From Dysosmobacter sp. Marseille-Q4140 (GTDB lineage: Bacteria; Bacillota; Clostridia; Oscillospirales; Oscillospiraceae), in assembly GCA_018228705.1 (NCBI GenBank), contig CP073694.1, positions 1,612,001-1,676,000 on the forward strand: DNA of 64,000 bases, in the 5' to 3' direction. The translations under genes were made by a program, and so were the position numbers. The number at the start of each line of letters is the position of its first letter. The stretch's first letter is position 1. Below the pieces are notes generated by a model. That model was not told the DNA's origin. It saw nothing but the letters and a program-made list of their open reading frames with translations, and did no database searches. Shown one piece after another: positions 8,755 to 44,544 of this stretch.

Positions 8755-9576
8755 TCACAGGAAATCGGGCATGGGGCCCCGGCTGGTCAGAAGGGTGTGC
8801 TCCCGGAACCCGGCGGCCCGGGCCAGCTCCGCCGCCTGATCGTAGGCGTGGACGATCCCGGCGGCGCTGTGGGCGTCGGCGGTGAGGATAACCCGGCCGC
8901 CCATCGCCCGCCACTCCCGCAGCAAGAACAGCGCCGGATAGGGCGTGTCCCGGTAGCCCCGGGCCATGGCGCCGGTGTTGATCTCCAGCAGCGTGGCGTC
9001 CGGGTCCGCGGCGTGGAGGGCCTCCAGCGCCGCGGCGCGGTAGGCCGGGTCCGCCTCGTCGAAGAAGCGGCCGTCCCGGTTCAGCTTCACGATCAGGTCC
9101 ATGTGGCCCAGGATGGTGGGTCTGCGCCGCGCCATGGCGGCCACGTCGGCAAAATACCCCCTCGCCATGGCCAGGGCGTCCCCGCCGAACATCTCCCGCA
9201 GGCAGGCCGCAACATGGTCCGCGTCCCAGTCCACGCAGTGGTACTGCCTGGTCCGGGGATCGTACAGGTTGTGGACGGAGCCGATCCAGTACGCCGCCCA
9301 GTCCGGCACCGGCTGGGAGGACTGGCTGTCCTGCTCGATGCCCGGCAGTACCTCCATCCGCCCCCGGTATTCCTCTCGCAGCCGCAGCACCTCCGCCCGG
9401 TAGGCGGACGGGTCCTCCGGCAGCACGTTGCCCTGGTCCCAGGGGATATCGGTGTGGCTGTGGCCGGAGGCGCCGAAGGTCACCGCTCCGGCTTCAAAGG
9501 CCGCCCGGGCCATCTCCGCCAGGGTGTTCTTCCCGTCGCAGAGGGTGGAGTGGGTGTGGACGGTGCAGATCCTCAT
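8755..9576 (-). CDS. hisJ: Histidinol-phosphatase, PHP family
   Basis: 273 residues. Dephosphorylates L-histidinol phosphate, the penultimate stage of histidine synthesis. The PHP metal-binding motif [10 protein letters not shown] is at 7-16, with later histidines in GHSHTD (about 38), SVHNLYD, GHMDLI and TADAHS typical of the trinuclear site. The ATG at 9576 overlaps the hisIE stop in ATGA, so translation is coupled; the ORF open upstream is shadow. It is the last gene of the his operon. A PHP enzyme here explains why hisB encodes only the dehydratase. Confidence 0.92.
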
Positions 9577-10208
9577 TGCATCCGCTCCTGCTTGACCTTG
9601 TGGTCCACCACATGGCGCTTTTCCAGCTCCCGGGTGATGTCCTCCACGGAAATGCCCATTTGGACCATCAGCACCATGACGTGGTAGGTCAGGTCCGCGA
9701 TCTCGTAGATGGTCTCCTCCCTGTCCTCCTTGCGGCCGCCGATGATGACCTCGGTGCACTCCTCGCCCACCTTCTTGAGGATCTTATCCAGGCCCTTGTT
9801 GAAGAGGTAGGTGGTGTAGCTGCCCTCCTTGGGGTCGGTCTTGCGGCCCTCGATCAGGTGGTAGAGACCCTCATAGCTGAACTGCTTGAGTTCCTCGGAC
9901 AGATACACCGGCTGGAAAAAGCAGCTCTCCGCGCCGGTGTGGCAGGCAGGACCGGCCTTGACCACCTCCACCACCAACGCGTCGGCGTCGCAGTCGGCGG
10001 TGATGGACACCACCCGCTGCACGTTGCCGCTGGTCTCGCCCTTGCGCCAGAGCTCCTGACGGCTGCGGCTCCAGAAGCAGGTGCGGCCCTCGTCGATGGT
10101 GATGGCCAGGCTCTCGGCGTTCATGTAGGCCAGGGTCAGGACCTCCTTGGTGTAGTGGTCCTGGACGATGGCGGGGATCAGGCCCTTTTCGTCAAATTTC
10201 AGTTCCAT
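9573..10208 (-). CDS. hisIE: Bifunctional phosphoribosyl-AMP cyclohydrolase / phosphoribosyl-ATP pyrophosphohydrolase
   Basis: 211 residues. The N-terminal HisI domain (1-105) has the metal-binding DCDAD and [12 protein letters not shown] segments; the C-terminal HisE domain (about 115-211) has [14 protein letters not shown] and EIADLTYH, the MazG-like helices. Together they perform the second and third steps of histidine synthesis. GGAG lies 10 nt before the ATG at 10208. The gene is separated from hisF by 818 bp of non-coding DNA holding a repeat-like element, so it may be poorly read from the main his promoter or have its own start. Confidence 0.95.
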
Positions 10209-10254
10209 GGTGGATACGCTCCTTTTTGAAAGGTTTCCTCGCTGGGAGGGGATA

Positions 10255-10995
10255 CCGGGAGGTTCCCGGGGATTCCGGCCCCACTTTTCTTTGTCTTGTC
10301 AAAGAAAAGTCGCCGCCGGAGCGGTGGAAAAGAAAACGTTTAGTGCCAAACCTTGCGCCGTCGGCGCAAGGTCCGGCAAATACGGGGGTCGTGCGAAGCG
10401 GTGCGGCGGGCGTCGATGGTCCCGCCGTCCCTGCGCCGTTCTCCGGCGATCGAAGGGCCCCGGCCCCGCATAACGACTGCGGCGGGCAGACGGGGTGCAA
10501 AATCGCATTTATCCCCTGCTTCTCGTTCCGCGCCTTCCGCTGCGCCAGGCGCTGCCCCGGCGGGTACGGGAGTACGGCGATGCCGGGGCTTCCGGTCTGC
10601 CGTAGGGGCTGATTCCATATCGGCCCGCCGCCGGGCGCTCCGCCAGCACCAGGTGAGCGGCAGCGGAAAGAGACGCTGGCCGATCCGAAAAGCACCCCGT
10701 CCCTCCGCCGCACAGTCTATGCGGCTCCAAGGTATTTCGACCACCGAGGCAAGGCGCAGGGTCGACGGGGCCGTCGATTCAGCGCAAGCCGATTCGCACG
10801 GCCTCGCGCTTCGGCAAATAAGCCCCGGACGGGGCGCTTTGCCGCCCGGCATCTTTTCTTTTGACCGGCCGCGGCCGTTTGCCTCCGGCCTAAGAGCCGC
10901 CTACGGCGGTTGGCCTCCGGCACGCGCCTGCAGGCGCAGTCTTTTCGTCTTGCCGAAAAGAAAATGGGGGCGGATCCCCCGCGGGAAGCCCGCGC
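10255..10995. mobile_element. Non-coding TIR-bounded element of about 740 bp between hisF and hisIE
   Basis: The ends are imperfect inverted repeats: CCGGCCCCACTTTTCTTTG at 10275-10293 matches the complement of 10954-10973 (CCGCCCCCATTTTCTTTTCG), and similarity goes on outward for roughly 15 bp. Inside are many short palindromes: 10284-10309, 10351-10371, GCGCCTGCAGGCGC at 10924-10937, CCGCCTACGGCGG at 10897-10909, and 10941-10960. All open frames are arginine/proline-rich without ribosome sites. There is no transposase. MITE-like element or large structured RNA are both possible. Confidence 0.6.
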
Positions 10996-11026
10996 TCCCG
11001 CCCGGCCCGCCGGCAGCAGGGCAGGC

Positions 11027-11782
11027 TCAGATCCGCATCTCCACGCCCCGGGCGCGGAGGTAGCGCTTGAGGTCCTTGATGTCCACCTCTCCGGTGTGGA
11101 AAATGGAGGCCGCAAGACCCGCATCGATGCCGGGGTGGGTGAACAGCTCCGCAAAATGCTCCATGTTCCCGGCGCCGCCGCTGGCGATGATGGGCACGTG
11201 CACCCGCTCCGCCAGGGCGTCCAGCATCTCCAGGTCGAAGCCCTGCTTCACGCCGTCGGTGTCGATGGAGTTCAGCACGATCTCCCCGGCGCCGTCGTTC
11301 ACGCCCCGGACCGCCCAGTCCAGGGCGTCGATGCCGGTGTCCTCCCGGCCGCCCTTGGCGAAGAGGCGGAACTGTCCGTCCACCCGCTTGACGTCCATGC
11401 TGAGGACCACGCACTGGTCGCCGTACTTCTTGGCGGCGGCGGCGATGATGGAGGGGTCCGCGATGGCGCCGGAGTTGACGGACACCTTGTCGGCGCCGCA
11501 CTTGAGCACCCGGTCGAAATCCTCCACGGAGCGGATGCCGCCGCCCACGGTCAGCGGAATGAAGATCTCCGCCGCCACCCGGCGGAGGATGTCGGTGAAG
11601 AGCTTGCGGCCCTCGGCGGAGGCGGTGATGTCGTAGAACACCAGCTCGTCGGCGCCGGAGTCGTTGTAGAACCGGGCCATGACCACCGGGTCCGCCATGT
11701 CCCGCAGGCCCTCAAAATTGACGCCCTTCACCACCCGTCCGTCCTTCACGTCCAGGCAGGGGATGATCCGCTTGGCCAGCAT
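11027..11782 (-). CDS. hisF: Imidazole glycerol phosphate synthase, cyclase subunit
   Basis: 251 residues, a TIM barrel. Uses ammonia from HisH to turn PRFAR into imidazole glycerol phosphate and AICAR. Catalytic Asp11 (CLDVKDG) and Asp130 (SMDVKR) are in place, with phosphate loops VGGGIRS and IASGGAGN. The start at 11782 overlaps the hisA stop by one base (TGATG), so the two are coupled; codons upstream to 12079 belong to hisA read in another frame. The non-coding element starts within 35 bp of its stop. Confidence 0.97.
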   Translation of the reverse strand: MLAKRIIPCLDVKDGRVVKGVNFEGLRDMADPVVMARFYNDSGADELVFYDITASAEGRKLFTDILRRVAAEIFIPLTVGGGIRSVEDFDRVLKCGADKVSVNSGAIADPSIIAAAAKKYGDQCVVLSMDVKRVDGQFRLFAKGGREDTGIDALDWAVRGVNDGAGEIVLNSIDTDGVKQGFDLEMLDALAERVHVPIIASGGAGNMEHFAELFTHPGIDAGLAASIFHTGEVDIKDLKRYLRARGVEMRI

Positions 11783-12495
11783 CAGCCCACCTCCTTCATG
11801 ACGGTTTTCAAATCCAGCCGCCCGGTGTACAGGGCCTTGCCCAGAATGGCGGCCTGGGTGCCGATGGCCTTCAGCTGCCGCAGCTCCTCGATGCTGCTGA
11901 CACCGCCGGAGGCGGTGACGGCCAGGCCGTCGATTTTGGAAAGTTCCCGGTAGAGGTCCAGGTTCGTCCCCTGTTCGGCCCCGTCCCGGCTGATGTCGGT
12001 GTAGATGACGGCCTTCACCCCGGCGGAGCGGAGGCGGCGGCAGAAGTCCACGCCCTTTTCCGCGGACAGCTCCTTCCACCCGCTGACGGCCACGTAGCCG
12101 TCCCGGGCGTCCACACCCACAACGATACGCTCGCCGTACTTCCGGGCCATGCGCTCCGTGAAGGCGAAGTCCTTTACGGCGATGGTGCCCAGGATGCAGC
12201 GGCCCACCCCCAGGTCCAGGTAGCGGCGGATGCGGTCCTCATCCCGGATGCCGCCGCCCACCTCGATGTACAGCCCGCCCTGGCGGGCGATGGCGGCGAT
12301 GGAGTCAAAATTGGCCAGGGTGCCGTCCCGGGCACCGTCCAGGTCCACCACGTGGAGGCATTTCGCCCCGGCGGCCAGGAAGTCCCGGGCCACGGCGCAG
12401 GGGTCCGCGGCGTAGACGGTCTCTTTGTCGTAATCCCCCTGGTAGAGGCGGACCACCTGTCCGCCCCGCAGGTCAATGGCGGGAAAAATATCCAT
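11782..12495 (-). CDS. hisA: Phosphoribosylformimino-AICAR ribotide isomerase
   Basis: 237 residues, a TIM barrel homologous to HisF. Isomerises ProFAR to PRFAR. Catalytic Asp8 (FPAIDLRGG) and Asp129 (VVGVDARDG) are present, as are the phosphate-binding EVGGGIR (78-84) and TASGGVSS. The ATG at 12495 with GGGAGAG ahead is preferred over an ATG seven codons upstream. It follows the PNPOx-like gene by 27 nt and overlaps hisF by 1 nt. No sign of the PriA-type dual enzyme, as expected outside actinobacteria. Confidence 0.97.
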   Translation of the reverse strand: MDIFPAIDLRGGQVVRLYQGDYDKETVYAADPCAVARDFLAAGAKCLHVVDLDGARDGTLANFDSIAAIARQGGLYIEVGGGIRDEDRIRRYLDLGVGRCILGTIAVKDFAFTERMARKYGERIVVGVDARDGYVAVSGWKELSAEKGVDFCRRLRSAGVKAVIYTDISRDGAEQGTNLDLYRELSKIDGLAVTASGGVSSIEELRQLKAIGTQAAILGKALYTGRLDLKTVMKEVG

Positions 12496-19065: not shown

Positions 19066-20479
19066 ATTTTTCCAGCGCCAGGGTGAGGGTCACCGTCCCC
19101 CACAGGGCCTCGGTGGTGGACCCGGTCACCCACCGCATATCCGCGTCGCAGGTGATCTCCAGGCCCTCCCACTGGATCGTCCAGTCTCCCACGCCCATGC
19201 GCTCCAGCTCCTCCAGCCGCCGGTCCCGGCTGGATTTCCAGAAGGGCGCGCCCTCCTGCGCCCAGGCCAGGGCCATGGCCGACGCCAGCGCGGACTGGGG
19301 CAGCGTCAGCGGATAGCTCATATCCAGCGTCCCATCCGCCCGCACCGTCACGGCCGTCACCACGTCTCCCTCCGTCTGGTAGGAAAACTCCGTCTGCTTC
19401 CAGAAGCGGTGCGCGTCCCGATAGCCCTCCCACTGACCCGCCGTGTCCATGGCGCCGTCCACATAGCCATCGAGATATGCCTTCTGCTGGTTGACGTTCT
19501 CCGCGAACTCCGCCACCGTCAGGTCTCCCCGGTTGGGCGGCAAAGTCGCCTGGGTCCACCGCACCATATAGGCGATGAGCCCCGCAAGGCCCAGTCCCAG
19601 CAGCACCAGCCACCAGGGATATGCCTCGCTGACGCTGCGGTAGGCGGTCTCCCGGTCCCAGGGCTGAGGCTCGTCCTCCACGCACCGCTTCAGGCACCGG
19701 TACAGCACGAACCAGCCCACCACGGGAATGGCCAGCAGGATCTGACAGCCATAGATCCCCGCCAGGCGGGCCGCCCCCTGTTTCACGGACAGCCGCCCGC
19801 CGCCGGGTCGGCTGAGCCGCAGGCCCATGAGGACCTTGCCCGGGGTGGTGCCGAACAGGTGCAGCAGCAGCGGCTCCGCCAGCAGTTCCAGCAGCTTGGA
19901 CAGCAAAAACGCGAACCATTCGCTGCCCGCGTCCAGCCCGTAGGAGGACAGCGCCAGGGGGATCAGAAACACCAGCAGATACAGCGTCTCATCGATGGAC
20001 CGGGCCACCAACCGCCGGACCGGATTGCCGACCGTGGGCAGCGTGTCCGCCGCCGGCAGGGGCGGCGCCTCCGGCTGGCGCCACCAGGTCCCCCCGCTCT
20101 TCTCCGGCAGGGCCGGGGCGTCCAGGTCCCGGAGGTACCGCCCGGCGTCCAGGGCGTCGAAGCCGACCCCCGCTGAGCGGACCGCGCCGCACACCTGCCG
20201 CACCCGCTCCAGCGACGCCTGCTCGCCCTCCAGCTCCGCCAGACGCCGGTCCAGCACGGCGGGGAGAGCCTCCGTCCCCCGGCGCAGGTTCCGCAGCTCC
20301 TCCACGCTGACCCCCAGCCGCCGCAGCAGCTTGATCTTCTCCAACGTCTCCAGGTCTTTCTCGCTGTATTCCCGGTAGCCGTTTTTCGCCCGCCGGGGAC
20401 TCAGCAGCCCCTCCGCCTCGTAGTAGCGGATGTTGGCCCGGGGCACACCGGAGCGCACCTCCATCTCCTTGCTGGTCAT
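19064..20479 (-). CDS. Membrane-bound MerR-RDD regulator, copy 1
   Basis: 471 residues. Residues 1-70 are a MerR helix-turn-helix (VPRANIRYYEAEGLLSP), followed by a coiled dimer helix to about 105 and a linker with tandem prolines. Then comes an RDD-type membrane region (about 150-265, with FGTTPGKVLMGLRL) and a further span near 285-305 (WWLVLLGLGLAGLI), leaving about 160 C-terminal residues outside the cell (PPNRGDLTVAEFAEN near the span). This looks like a one-component, membrane-tethered transcription factor. It follows its paralogue by 4 nt. The first 148 codons are nearly identical in DNA to the paralogue. Signal and targets are unknown. Confidence 0.8.
   Translation of the reverse strand: MTSKEMEVRSGVPRANIRYYEAEGLLSPRRAKNGYREYSEKDLETLEKIKLLRRLGVSVEELRNLRRGTEALPAVLDRRLAELEGEQASLERVRQVCGAVRSAGVGFDALDAGRYLRDLDAPALPEKSGGTWWRQPEAPPLPAADTLPTVGNPVRRLVARSIDETLYLLVFLIPLALSSYGLDAGSEWFAFLLSKLLELLAEPLLLHLFGTTPGKVLMGLRLSRPGGGRLSVKQGAARLAGIYGCQILLAIPVVGWFVLYRCLKRCVEDEPQPWDRETAYRSVSEAYPWWLVLLGLGLAGLIAYMVRWTQATLPPNRGDLTVAEFAENVNQQKAYLDGYVDGAMDTAGQWEGYRDAHRFWKQTEFSYQTEGDVVTAVTVRADGTLDMSYPLTLPQSALASAMALAWAQEGAPFWKSSRDRRLEELERMGVGDWTIQWEGLEITCDADMRWVTGSTTEALWGTVTLTLALEK
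20034..20479. repeat. 446-bp near-identical block, copy A
   Basis: Matches 21511-21956 almost base for base (offset 1477) and covers the DNA-binding and linker parts of the two MerR-RDD genes; similarity drops sharply beyond 20034. Confidence 0.9.
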
Positions 20480-20483
20480 CCCG

Positions 20484-21956
20484 TCATTCCTCCAATGCCA
20501 TGGTGAAGGTGAAGGCGAAATGGTTCTCCCCGCCCTTGGTGTCGGGGAAGGCGATCCCCATTGTCGTTGCGGAAAAACCGTCCATCTCCGTCTCCAGCGT
20601 CATGGTCACATCGCCCTGGCGCAGGGTGAAGCCCCGGTCCCAGTCCAGCTCGTCAAACACCGCCAGCTGCCGCTTCTTTCCAGAGGTCCAGAAGGGCGCG
20701 TCCTCCCGGGCCCAGGCAAAGGCGGCCAGGACCGCCGCCATGCGGTACTCCGGCAGGCTGTACCAGTCAAAGCTGTTCCGCACTTCACCGGACAGCGTCA
20801 CGGCGGTGAGCCGCCCGTCCTCCACGGTGTAGCGGAACTGGTCCGCGCCGGGGATCTCCTGACTGACGGAAACGCGGATCACATTGGGCTCCTCCGGCCG
20901 CTCCCGAAAGACGCCCTGGCTGTCCAGCTCCCCGCCGAAGTCCATCCCCAGGTACGCCGCCTGGCGGTTGAAGTTCTCCGCAAATTCCGCCACCGTCAGG
21001 TCCCCCCGGTTGGGCGGCATCAGGGCGGCGCTGTTGACCGCCTCGCCCACGCCAATGACCAGGGCCAGCGCCGCGGCGGTGGCCGCCAGGTTCCGCAGCC
21101 GGAAGGGCCGGGCCGTATAGGCGATGTCCGCGTCCCAGGGCTGGGGCTCCTCATCCAGGCAGCGCCGCACCGTCCGGTACATCTGGATCAGCGACCAGAT
21201 GGGGAGGCCGAAGCCCAGACCGCACCAGAGCATCATGAGGTAGCGGGTGAAGCCGTCGGACCAGGACAGCCGCCCGCCGTCGCTCCGGGCCAGATGCAGG
21301 CCCATGAGGGCCTTGCCCGGGGTGGTGCCAAACAGGCGCAGCAGCAGCGGCTCCACCAGCGCCAGCAGCACCGCGAGCCCCAGGTTCACAGCCAGATCGT
21401 TCAGCTGGGCCGGATTTTGTCCCAGGAGACACAGCGCCGTCAGCAGAACCATGGCCAGGAAAAACTGATCCAGCATCCGGGCAATCAGCCGCCGGGGGAT
21501 GCTGCACACCGTGGGCAGCGTGTCCGCCGCCGGCAGGGGCGGCGCCTCCGGCTGGCGCCACCAGGTCCCCCCGCTCTCCTCCGGCAGGGCCGGGGCGTCC
21601 AGGTCCCGGAGGTACTTCCCGGCGTCCAGGGCGTCGAAGCCGACCCCCGCTGAGCGGACCGCGCCGCACACCTGCCGCACCCGCTCCAGCGACGCCTGCT
21701 CGCCGCCCAGCTCCGCCAGACGCCGGTCCAGCACGGCGGGGAGAGCCTCCGTCCCCCGGCGCAGGTTCCGCAGCTCCTCCACGCTGACCCCCAGCCGCCG
21801 CAGCAGCTTGATCTTCTCCAACGTCTCCAGGTCTTTCTCGCTGTATTCCCGGTAGCCGTTTTTCGCCCGCCGGGGACTCAGCAGCCCCTCCGCCTCGTAG
21901 TAGCGGATGTTGGCCCGGGGCACACCGGAGCGCAGTTCGATTTCCTTACTGGTCAT
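20484..21956 (-). CDS. Membrane-bound MerR-RDD regulator, copy 2
   Basis: 490 residues, same plan as the gene downstream: MerR DNA-binding domain 1-70, dimer helix, linker, RDD membrane domain (FGTTPGKALMGLHLA) and an extracellular C-terminal domain after a span near 295-315. The outer domains of the two proteins share PPNRGDLTVAEFAEN but are otherwise divergent, so they may sense different ligands with the same DNA specificity. AAAGGAG precedes the ATG at 21956. It is first in the two-gene unit and has a MerR-type promoter with a 19-bp spacer upstream. Confidence 0.8.
   Translation of the reverse strand: MTSKEIELRSGVPRANIRYYEAEGLLSPRRAKNGYREYSEKDLETLEKIKLLRRLGVSVEELRNLRRGTEALPAVLDRRLAELGGEQASLERVRQVCGAVRSAGVGFDALDAGKYLRDLDAPALPEESGGTWWRQPEAPPLPAADTLPTVCSIPRRLIARMLDQFFLAMVLLTALCLLGQNPAQLNDLAVNLGLAVLLALVEPLLLRLFGTTPGKALMGLHLARSDGGRLSWSDGFTRYLMMLWCGLGFGLPIWSLIQMYRTVRRCLDEEPQPWDADIAYTARPFRLRNLAATAAALALVIGVGEAVNSAALMPPNRGDLTVAEFAENFNRQAAYLGMDFGGELDSQGVFRERPEEPNVIRVSVSQEIPGADQFRYTVEDGRLTAVTLSGEVRNSFDWYSLPEYRMAAVLAAFAWAREDAPFWTSGKKRQLAVFDELDWDRGFTLRQGDVTMTLETEMDGFSATTMGIAFPDTKGGENHFAFTFTMALEE
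21511..21956. repeat. 446-bp near-identical block, copy B
   Basis: Partner of 20034-20479. The high DNA identity confined to the 5' part points to gene conversion or a recent partial duplication. Confidence 0.9.
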
Positions 21957-42608: not shown

Positions 42609-42690
42609 TGACGTTCCTCCTTATTTGTATATGTCCGCCCGCGCCGGGGCGGTCTTTCCGAAGCCATCAAAGGAATCCGGACGGGTCTGC

Positions 42691-42842
42691 CCGCAGGGCA
42701 TCGCCCTCCGCCTCGCCGCTGCCGCGGCAACCGGCGGAGATGGCGTGAGAGCCGCCCCTCTGCGCTTATTTCTCTTCTGCGCCCTGCTCCAGCGCCGCCT
42801 TCACGAATCCGTAAAACAGCGGATGCGGACGGTCGGGGCGGA
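42691..42842. repeat. Direct repeat copy 1, remnant of the pyrG 3' end and following DNA
   Basis: About 152 bp repeated with a 171-bp period; the partner is 42862-43013. The copies differ at only a few bases. Confidence 0.92.
42766..42842 (-). pseudogene. pyrG C-terminal fragment
   Basis: Encodes the last 25 or so codons of CTP synthase again ([20 protein letters not shown] and three more residues) and ends in its own TAA. It has no start codon or ribosome site. Left by the tandem duplication; the real gene ends at 42937. Confidence 0.85.
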
Positions 42843-42861
42843 TCGCTCCCTTCGGGGGCGA

Positions 42862-43013
42862 CCGCAGGGCATCGCCCTCCGCCTCGCCGCTGCCGCGGCA
42901 ACCGGCGGAGATGGCGCGAGAGCCGCCCCTCTGTGCTTATCTCTCTTCTGCGCCCTGCTCCAGCGCCGCCTTCACGAACCCGTAAAACAGCGGATGCGGA
43001 CGGTCGGGGCGGC
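42862..43013. repeat. Direct repeat copy 2, includes the true 3' end of pyrG
   Basis: Partner of 42691-42842. The non-coding part holds palindrome-rich GGGCATCGCC...GCCGCGGC DNA like other gaps in the window. Confidence 0.92.
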
Positions 43014-44544
43014 TCTTGAACTCCGGGTGGAACTGGGCGCCCACAAACCAGGGATGGTCCTCCAGCTCCACGATCTCCACCAGCCTCTCATCGGGGGACA
43101 GGCCCGCCAGGGTCAGGCCTGCGGACCGGGCGGCGGCGCGGTAGTCGTTGTTGAACTCATAGCGGTGGCGGTGACGCTCGGAGATCTCCGCCGCGCCGTA
43201 CAGCGCCCGGCTCCGGCTGCCCTCTGTCAGGCGGCAGGGATACCGCCCCAGGCGCATGGTGCCGCCCTTGTCGGTGATGTGCACCTGATCCGGCATCAGG
43301 TCGATGACCGGGTGCCTGGTGGCGGCGAACTCGGAGGAGTTGGCGTCCTCCAGCCCCATCACGTGGCGGGCAAACTCCACCACCGCCATCTGCATCCCCA
43401 GGCAGATGCCGAAGTACGGCACCATATTTTCCCGGGCGTAGCGGCAGGCGGCGATCATGCCCTCGATGCCCCGGTCGCCGAAGCCCCCGGGCACCAGCAC
43501 CCCGGCGCAGCCGGAGAGGACCTGGGCCGCGTTTTCATCGGTGACGGTCTCGGAGTCCACCCACCGGATGTCCACCACCGCGTCGTTGGCGGTGCCGGCG
43601 TGGTGCAGGGACTCCACCACGGAGAGGTAGGCGTCGTGGAGCTGGGTGTACTTGCCCACCAGGGCGATGGTCACATGGCGCTCCGCCGCCAGCTCCCGCT
43701 TTACCATGGCCTTCCACTCCCGCAGGTCCGGCTGGTGGGTGATGAGGCCCAGCTTCCGGCAGACCACCTCGTCCAGGCCCTCCTTCGCCATCAGCAGAGG
43801 CACCTCGTAGAGGGTCCGGGCGGTGGTGTTCTGGATGACGCAGTCCGGCTCCACGTTGCAGAACAGGGCGATCTTCCGGCGGATGTCCTCGGTGATGGGG
43901 GCGTCGCACCGGCACACCAGGATGTCCGGCTGGATGCCCAGAGACAAAAGCTCCTTCACGGAGTGCTGGGTGGGCTTGCTCTTGAGCTCCCCGGAGCCGG
44001 GGATCTGGACGATCAGGGGCACATGGATGAACACCACGTCGCCCCGGGGCCGCTCCACGGCCACCTGGCGGATGGCCTCCAGAAAGGGCTGGGACTCAAT
44101 GTCGCCCACGGTGCCGCCGATCTCGGTGATGACCACGTCCACATCCTCCCCGGCCATGGAGTAGATGCGGTTTTTGATCTCGTCGGTGATGTGGGGGATG
44201 ATCTGCACCGTGGCGCCCAGGTAGTCGCCCCGGCGCTCCCGGTTCAGCACGGACCAGTAGATCTTGCCGGAGGACACGGAGCTGTTGCCGGTCAGGTCCT
44301 CGTCCACGAACCGCTCGTAGTGACCCAGGTCCAGATCCGTCTCGGCGCCGTCCTCGGTGACGAACACCTCCCCGTGCTGATAGGGGCTCATGGTCCCGGG
44401 GTCCACATTGATATAGGGGTCGAACTTCTGATTGCGCACCCGGACGCCCCGCTGCTTCAAAAGCCGTCCCAGGGACGCCGCGCAGATCCCCTTGCCCAGG
44501 CCGGACACCACGCCGCCGGTGACAAATACAAACTTGGTGGTCAC
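42937..44544 (-). CDS. pyrG: CTP synthase
   Basis: 535 residues, normal length. Makes CTP from UTP, ATP and glutamine. The synthetase domain (1-265) opens with [12 protein letters not shown] (P-loop, 9-20); the glutaminase domain (about 290-535) has nucleophile Cys in [12 protein letters not shown] and His/Glu in [13 protein letters not shown] start at 44544, 6 nt after a GGTGAG-type site; no better ATG. A consensus promoter lies 215 bp upstream, leaving a long leader with a GTCCCG/CGGGAC hairpin and TTTT, possibly an attenuator. Confidence 0.96.

Follow-up and report, generated by a model that had tools for sequence, protein, structure and literature searches.

What fills the space between hisF and hisIE in this histidine operon, and how did it come to be there? 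The locus lies in a 64,000-nucleotide stretch of the genome of Dysosmobacter sp. Marseille-Q4140 (the whole stretch that was analysed, called the window here and used for all coordinates), where the his genes are read from the minus strand in the order hisF, an 818-bp gap and hisIE. A hisA-type gene and a glutamine-amidotransferase (hisH-like) gene lie upstream of hisF, a PHP-domain (hisJ-like) gene lies downstream of hisIE, and hisB and hisC were named by eye in the same cluster. A preliminary description of this DNA had held that the gap is not random filler, that it harbors no credible gene, and that it is either a MITE-like repeat or a structured RNA transcribed with the his mRNA. Open reading frames of up to 236 aa do run across the gap. 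No credible gene was found among them: a gene caller that was trained on the his genes and recovered them placed none within the gap (the caller, which was checked on the window, misses short genes), and a Pfam scan of six of the ORFs that cross the gap gave no match. A plasmid search also gave no match, leaving a plasmid origin unsupported. The corresponding search of phage records gave six matches, all of them pieces of 32-60 bp in unannotated faecal contigs, and these are no evidence for a phage element. The contigs in question, filed as “Bacteriophage sp.” (MT836050, MT839812, MT838800, MT836682, MT838930 and MT839079), may themselves be bacterial.

The reading that we favor, with a probability of about 0.72, is that the insert is one copy of a dispersed mosaic family of palindromic DNA repeats of Oscillibacter-like bacteria, and that the hisF-hisIE gap has been filled in the window lineage and in several relatives. 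Copies were sought in relatives' genomes; a HisIE scan of genome contigs left 80 loci, the close ones belonging to Oscillibacter and related Oscillospiraceae. When the gap was compared by BLASTN with 20 of the relatives' genomes, 12 gave matches, with at least 18 places in one genome (place counts are lower bounds, taken from the best 26 candidates or fewer per genome). Across the loci fetched from whole genomes, 774 of the 818 gap bases match repeats at loci other than his (his-sense positions 5-778, corresponding to window 11022-10249). The coverage leaves out the his locus of one genome (L139 of G320), the only locus matched by the hisF and hisIE control queries, and the figure is 774 with or without it. 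Queries made of single copies gave at least 35-146 matches per genome, halves often being tallied apart. Comparison with related genomes thus uncovered many further copies, and unique decayed filler is rejected; the limits first proposed for the element, 10255-10995, were right to within about 30 bp.

How far the family extends depends on which part of it is followed. A strict end motif (CCCCCATTYTCTTTTN{6,14}AAAAGARAA) occurs in 40 of the 86 genomes of the genus of G002, with a maximum of 36 ends in G002 itself and 34 each in G006 and G008. Samples of 149 other genomes of the family (G352 among them, a genome that the genus list includes as well) and of 298 others of the phylum had none, and the reversed pattern, used as a control, gave 0 matches. 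Within the genomes sampled, then, the exact end motif is confined to the genus. The window copy is a variant that fails the strict pattern, and the motif counts are therefore lower bounds. The inner module at 10852-10970 is more widely spread than the strict motif: it was found in at least 8 of 245 genomes of the order (seven and G002, with the best three candidates or fewer scored per genome).

The window copy consists of two end hairpins of one kind in inverted array with imperfect palindromes between them (Table 1). The CTTTTC/GAAAAG hairpins with TCTTGT and TCTTGC loops that had been noticed at the two ends are both there, and no hairpin like the hisIE-side one arose in 100 shuffles of the window. 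Two further pairs of inverted arms were measured, at 10315-10336 and 10854-10875 (22 nt, 73%) and at 10344-10360 and 10362-10378 (17 nt, 88%). The sequence GTAGGGGC occurs once in the window, within the GTAG-tagged REP.

Table 1. The hisF-hisIE gap of the window, its flanking genes and the parts of the repeat copy within it.
Feature	Position	Strand	Remarks
hisF	11027..11782	-	directly upstream of the element; TIGR00735, 344.6 bits
hisF-hisIE gap, containing the element	10209..11026	-	818 bp
Sequence homologous to dispersed non-his repeats	10249..11022		774/818 nt; at least 10 loci over 10257-10980
Entry hairpin GGGGGATCCGCCCCC, B-like by eye, then ATTTTCTTTT (10956-10965)	10966..10980	-	intrinsic-terminator-like; first met by transcription exiting hisF
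hisF-side terminal hairpin CTTTTCG-TCTTGC-CGAAAAG	10941..10960		sequence; 7-bp stem; homologous end hairpins covary (65 distinct copies)
hisF-side terminal unit with GACTGCGCC...GCGCGTGCC...CGCCTACGGCGG module	10852..10970	-	matches dispersed copies most strongly, E 4.5e-33 in G003
Inner arm	10692..10777		imperfect pairing (71%, 86 nt) with 10413-10498
Degenerate GTAG-tagged REP: GTAG and stem GGGCTGAT / ATCGGCCC (one T-G pair), loop TCCAT	10602..10626	+	
Inner arm	10413..10498		partner of 10692-10777
Subterminal hairpin TGCCAAACCTTGCGCCG / CGGCGCAAGGTCCGGCA (88%), adjoining CCCCCGTA on the his-sense strand	10344..10378		layout shared with L002 and L003
hisIE-side terminal hairpin CTTTTCTTTG-TCTTGT-CAAAGAAAAG	10284..10309		perfect 10-bp stem
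Weaker entry hairpin GGGGATTCCGGCCCC, then ACTTTTCTTTG, hisIE side	10268..10282	+	4-bp stem
hisIE	9573..10208	-	directly downstream of the element; NF002747, 264.6 bits

The general architecture was read from 46 paired-end elements of 481-1389 bp from nine genomes. Every end opens with a hairpin, outside which lie further small hairpins of two types: type A (AGCCAT..ATGGCTGGGCA, often with GCGTCC..GGACGC before it) and type B (CTCCCGC..GGGG.., often with GGCCGCC..GGCGGCC before it). In 30 of the 46 elements, stretches of about 70 bp (69-117) at the ends are at least 97% identical between elements at unrelated sites, and the matches of one element to others often stop near its middle. These shared ends and the breaks in mid-element lead us to describe the element as two half-units in inverted order. 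Subterminal types are mixed in 18 elements and matched in 8 and 6, with one side unclassified in 14. The element is a pair of inverted half-units, each opening with a covarying hairpin, whose different subtypes combine freely and whose copies are intergenic. A central GTAGGGG is present in 17 elements, absent from 29, and found in both orientations in 7. More broadly, a 5-bp stem comes immediately after the tag, as in a GTAG REP module, at 55 of the 78 distinct GTAGGGGC sites of loci L081-L223.

Folding bears on whether the structure belongs to RNA or to DNA. The fold of the gap is much more stable than those of its dinucleotide shuffles, whichever strand is taken (z of -10.0 and -11.1; 0 of 20 shuffles as good on each), and equal folding of the two strands is what is expected of a DNA palindrome and gives no sign of a strand-specific RNA. 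The small end hairpins covary. Among 65 distinct copies, one stem pair is T-A in 36, C-G in 24 and a T-C mismatch in 5, and complementarity of the inner 2 bp was seen in 37 of 42 distinct loops, against a mean of 13.4 and a maximum of 23 over 2000 permutations. Most repeat loci were picked from listed places and fetched by patterns requiring part of each hairpin arm, so that the AAAAG present in 65 of 65 ends is not independent of the fetch pattern, which placed no constraint on the inner pairs or on the Y-R pair. The long stem that would join arm to arm behaves differently: there is no excess complementarity within elements compared with between elements of the same genome, the left-right medians being 146, 90 and 42 within and 184, 113 and 93 between (0, 45 and 90 bp of the ends skipped; 43 vs 520 comparisons). 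Covariation therefore holds for the local end hairpins and not for the long-range arms.

These results weigh on the idea that the gap acts in the his mRNA as a structured regulatory RNA, such as an attenuator or a riboswitch-like element. Such an RNA would account for the very stable fold and for the co-directional placement with hisF and hisIE. Against it, an Rfam scan of the window found no family at the gathering threshold, most of the 78 relatives in which the gap was measured have a short one, and copies of the family lie at many unrelated loci, including sites beside mutS-, uvrA- and trmFO-like genes (identified by eye). With both strands folding equally and long arms that are no more complementary within than between elements, a his-specific riboregulator is rejected, and we give the wider regulatory-RNA explanation almost no credence.

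Gene calling found 0 genes inside the 46 elements (short genes are missed by the caller). At two loci, L127 (1887-2520) and L131 (1875-2465), small genes lie between two element ends: an HTH_3 or RHH_3 regulator and an ORF with no Pfam match. By the caller's assignments the flanking genes are co-directional for 39 elements, divergent for 5 and convergent for 2, a tally that becomes 43, 1 and 2 when four short HTH genes are added by eye. The elements are also oriented. The A end lies towards the start of the downstream gene in 17 of 20 elements that were typed as A plus B by rule and sit between co-directional genes (p 0.0026). The bias remains at 14/17 (two-sided p about 0.013) without the three elements of this count whose stops were set by eye (such stops were set in L135, L143, L144 and L152, where the caller missed short HTH genes), at 15/18 (p about 0.0075) when a site shared by L126, L137 and L153 is tallied once, and at 18/22 (p about 0.004) when ends missed by the rule are added by eye, namely the second element of L154 (for) and L139 (against). 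Exceptions to the polarity are thus 3 of the 20 by rule and also L139, the his element of G320, whose A end faces hisF.

The two types of end differ in what they resemble. A G/C stem directly before a T-rich tract is found in 18 of 37 B ends, 0 of 25 A ends and 6 of 30 untyped ends, compared with 11.8% of shuffled flanks. The hisF-facing end of the window copy looks like an intrinsic terminator: it has a 5-bp G/C stem followed by ATTTTCTTTT, and a terminator scan also picked it out. A scan of 9500-11800 with the sigma-70 consensus found no promoter-like site, where 0.1 would be expected by chance, and says little either way. From this layout, a polar effect on hisIE and an uncoupling of hisIE-hisJ are plausible, and our best guess from the sequence is that there would be partial termination or processing between hisF and hisIE. 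Transcription exiting hisF would meet the G/C hairpin and T-rich tract and then a very stable hairpin; the hairpins would cause partial termination, or would provide a point of mRNA cleavage or protection, and hisIE-hisJ would then be made at a lower level than hisF. More broadly, the positions could be kept over species time while occupants are swapped in a preferred orientation, with a terminator-like B end after the upstream stop and an A end before the downstream start. That the family might for this reason be a mobile system of interchangeable terminators or insulators, as opposed to passive junk, is a tentative and rather doubtful proposal.

Comparison of the his gap in relatives shows both filled and empty sites. 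The gap could be measured in 78 of the 80 loci. Nine close relatives (L001, L004, L005, L007, L008, L010, L012, L014 and L015) have gaps of 14-78 bp; those of L003 and L002, at 984-995 bp, hold an element with a layout like that of the window. In a tree of HisA, HisF and HisIE the window groups with L002, L003 and L008 (support 95/95), and the gap of L008 is empty. The gap was re-examined in 16 genomes, of which ten were measurable, some of these being re-measurements. In G320 the gap measures 891 bp and contains a full element (A end towards hisF; in L002 the B end is towards hisF, by eye); the gaps of G008 and G385 are 77 bp each and almost identical; and other short gaps were found in G357 (53 bp), G343 (57 bp), G012 (14 bp), G339 (17 bp) and G019 (13 bp). 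The gaps of G376 (583 bp) and G321 (404 bp) have no strict ends, and that of G376 contains a gene by eye. The contig of G006 starts 204 bp before hisIE, within an element end, and is counted as occupied from one end. Five genomes were unusable for gap size: G341 (hisF off the locus), G369 (a partial hisIE match), and G334, G351 and G363 (no usable hisIE). The site is thus occupied in the window, L002, L003, G320 and G006 (one end), and empty sites exist even in the sister L008. The preliminary description would have taken the gap for decayed unique sequence had there been no second copy, no empty site and no covarying helices; all three were observed.

In other species the his gap holds extra genes, which makes it a recurrent insertion site inside the his operon. 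These include a KptA/Tpt1 RNA 2'-phosphotransferase in L011 and L018, a DUF6892 gene in L009 (similar by eye in L286), an XRE gene in L020, and a gene with no Pfam match in L013 and L049 (similar by eye in L019).

Sites elsewhere in the genome tell how occupants change. For six sites of G008, 17 of the 24 orthologous loci fetched had both flanks; 11 of these are occupied and 6 lack a full core. Among the latter, L241 has no module by eye, L228 and L247 retain outer hairpins, and L236 retains one half; because of these remnants, gain and loss are not separable at L228, L247 and L236. Identity of the element is 99% in one occupied pair and 88% in another, and the other nine have only 0.49-0.71 identical bases per element base. 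The L155/L224 pair is the most telling: its flanks are 100% and 99% identical, and identity between its elements is 76% (553 of 728 aligned bases), with hairpin types that differ at both ends. Near-identical flanks around different elements do not arise by point mutation, and the occupant was either replaced or lost and then re-inserted. Copies, in short, are gained and lost at orthologous sites and differ there beyond point mutation. We infer gene conversion at the swapped sites as a candidate process; loss followed by re-insertion would look alike, and no nearly identical donor was found among the matches listed (at most the best 40 candidates per genome), the best being 88% and about 80% over nearly full length. 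In the mechanism that we propose, the near-identical ends of about 70 bp would mediate ectopic recombination or gene conversion, homogenising and replacing copies, and an enzyme working in trans, with the hairpins in single-stranded form as its substrate, would seed new sites. One pair points in the opposite direction: at L151/L227 the orthologous element is 99% identical and its flanks are 94-96% identical, so the element is more conserved than the neighbouring sequence. A mutS-like gene (by eye) in G334 (L250) has element ends on both sides, and the site upstream of mutS is also occupied, by different copies, in G008 and G385 (L155 and L224).

What would move such elements? MITEs, and the Correia elements of Neisseria, have inverted ends, are non-coding, reach high copy numbers and show presence/absence polymorphism. 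The present family shares all of these traits: it has terminal inverted repeats, many copies of 481-1389 bp that are non-coding with the exceptions of L127 and L131, and orthologous sites that are empty in some relatives. The MITE-like character suggested for the window copy therefore stands as to copy number, inverted ends and empty sites. It is less clear as to two features by which MITEs are defined: as to a target-site duplication, none that was clean being seen by eye in the empty-site comparisons (outer hairpins persist at some sites), and as to an autonomous partner with matching ends, none being found in the four longer end-to-end pairs inspected in a set of mostly fragmented genomes. 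Those four pairs enclose small regulators (L127 and L131) or, by eye, housekeeping-type genes (L205 and L250) in place of a partner transposase. Moreover, the halves assort independently here, which is unexpected for a cut-and-paste family. Movement as a MITE by a DDE transposase, encoded by an insertion sequence that shares these terminal inverted repeats, is unlikely.

A second candidate is a RAYT, a Y1 HUH transposase, which could mobilize the element as an oversized REPIN by recognizing a central GTAG REP. GTAG and CGTC REPs have been described, as have families of TIR repeats and RAYTs with long TIRs on either side (Di Nocera et al., 2013; PMC3733652), and the inner GTAG-plus-hairpin module fits the GTAG REP/RAYT pattern as set out in PMC3733652 and PMC2817692, there being RAYT-like genes in the genus and a REP at 10602-10626 of the window. 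Y1 transposase domains occur in 36 of the 86 genus genomes. Ten of the weaker Y1 genes were read and look RAYT-like, two of them scoring 63.9 and 62.9 bits with NF047646, both below the cut-off of 80, and RAYT-like genes are present in some element-rich genomes. On the other side, inspection gave no consistent link between Y1 transposases and element number, and there was no Y1 match in G003 or in G006, which has 34 ends. The ends of the compound element are CCCCCATTYTCTTTT hairpins without a GTAG tag; REPs are central and not terminal, and most elements lack the central GTAGGGG. Nor was the end motif found on the 3-7-kb loci of the ten RAYT-like genes, a difference from the TIR-flanked RAYTs of PMC3733652. 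RAYTs may explain the inner REPs and not the compound element, and mobilization of the whole by a RAYT is decidedly unlikely.

The RAYT-like genes have features of their own. The DNA of L195 and L201 shows an in-frame GTAG-plus-hairpin REP, and similar peptides suggest one in L194, L197, L199 and L202. By eye, a parC/gyrA-like start follows the gene in L194, L195, L197, L198 and L200, and a parE/gyrB-like end precedes it in L198, L199 and L200. In L203 (G329), four tandem variants of ATGTAGGGGCGGCAATCTGCCGCCCGC lie directly upstream of a RAYT-like gene.

Small regulator genes suggest a third possibility, that the element is a cassette platform which brings XRE-type regulator genes to intergenic sites and of which the his copy is cargo-free. 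Genes of the XRE type look enriched near element edges. Eight elements (L135, L143, L144, L152, L154 (1295-1510), L157, L146 and L155) have a 70-92-aa XRE HTH gene whose stop is 20-74 bp away from the element edge (the L144 protein being assigned by its near-identity to that of L152), and in a ninth (L154, 5645-5884) an XRE gene starts 142 bp away. The small genes between ends in L127 and L131 and the XRE gene in the his gap of L020 would fit as well. Most of the 46 elements, however, have no such gene in view, and we consider a cassette function quite improbable.

The mosaic repeat that we favor also has known counterparts. BIMEs have many intergenic copies and are mosaics of short palindromic modules in inverted order, and this family is likewise intergenic, present in many copies and built in that way. 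It differs from BIMEs in its length of 481-1389 bp from end to end, its non-GTAG terminal hairpin, its two long half-units and its REPs, which are internal and optional. Nor does it consist of REP units in alternating orientation, given the minority of elements with a central GTAGGGG or with both orientations. Pneumococcal BOX elements are modular (boxA-boxB-boxC), intergenic, variable in their internal modules and presumed to be mobilised in trans, and the present family resembles them in each of these respects; to our knowledge, BOX is unrelated to it in sequence and has no inverted half-unit architecture. By analogy, the family would seem to behave like BIME or BOX mosaics without the features that define REPINs. 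BIMEs built of REPs are named for E. coli and its relatives in PMC2817692, and REPs too are stated in PMC3733652 to lie mostly between unidirectional and convergent genes. The main text of PMC3733652 has no mention of Oscillibacter, Clostridi-, Firmicutes, Faecalibacterium or Ruminococc-. No description of the family was found in the open-licence literature on repeats of Oscillibacter, Faecalibacterium and Oscillospiraceae or on RAYTs, REPINs and BIMEs, and within that literature it appears to be unnamed so far.

The family is of interest on several counts. One 2.4-Mb genome of these gut bacteria has 36 exact ends, and several copies lie at contig ends, so that it may help to explain fragmented metagenome assemblies in the group. 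The family is also a natural test case for the persistence of palindromic repeats through replacement at fixed sites, and its elements may tune operons internally, here the histidine pathway. The window has, in addition, two pairs of direct repeats away from the his gap: 20026-20325 and 21503-21802 (300 bp, 98%), and 42682-42844 and 42853-43015 (163 bp, 94%).
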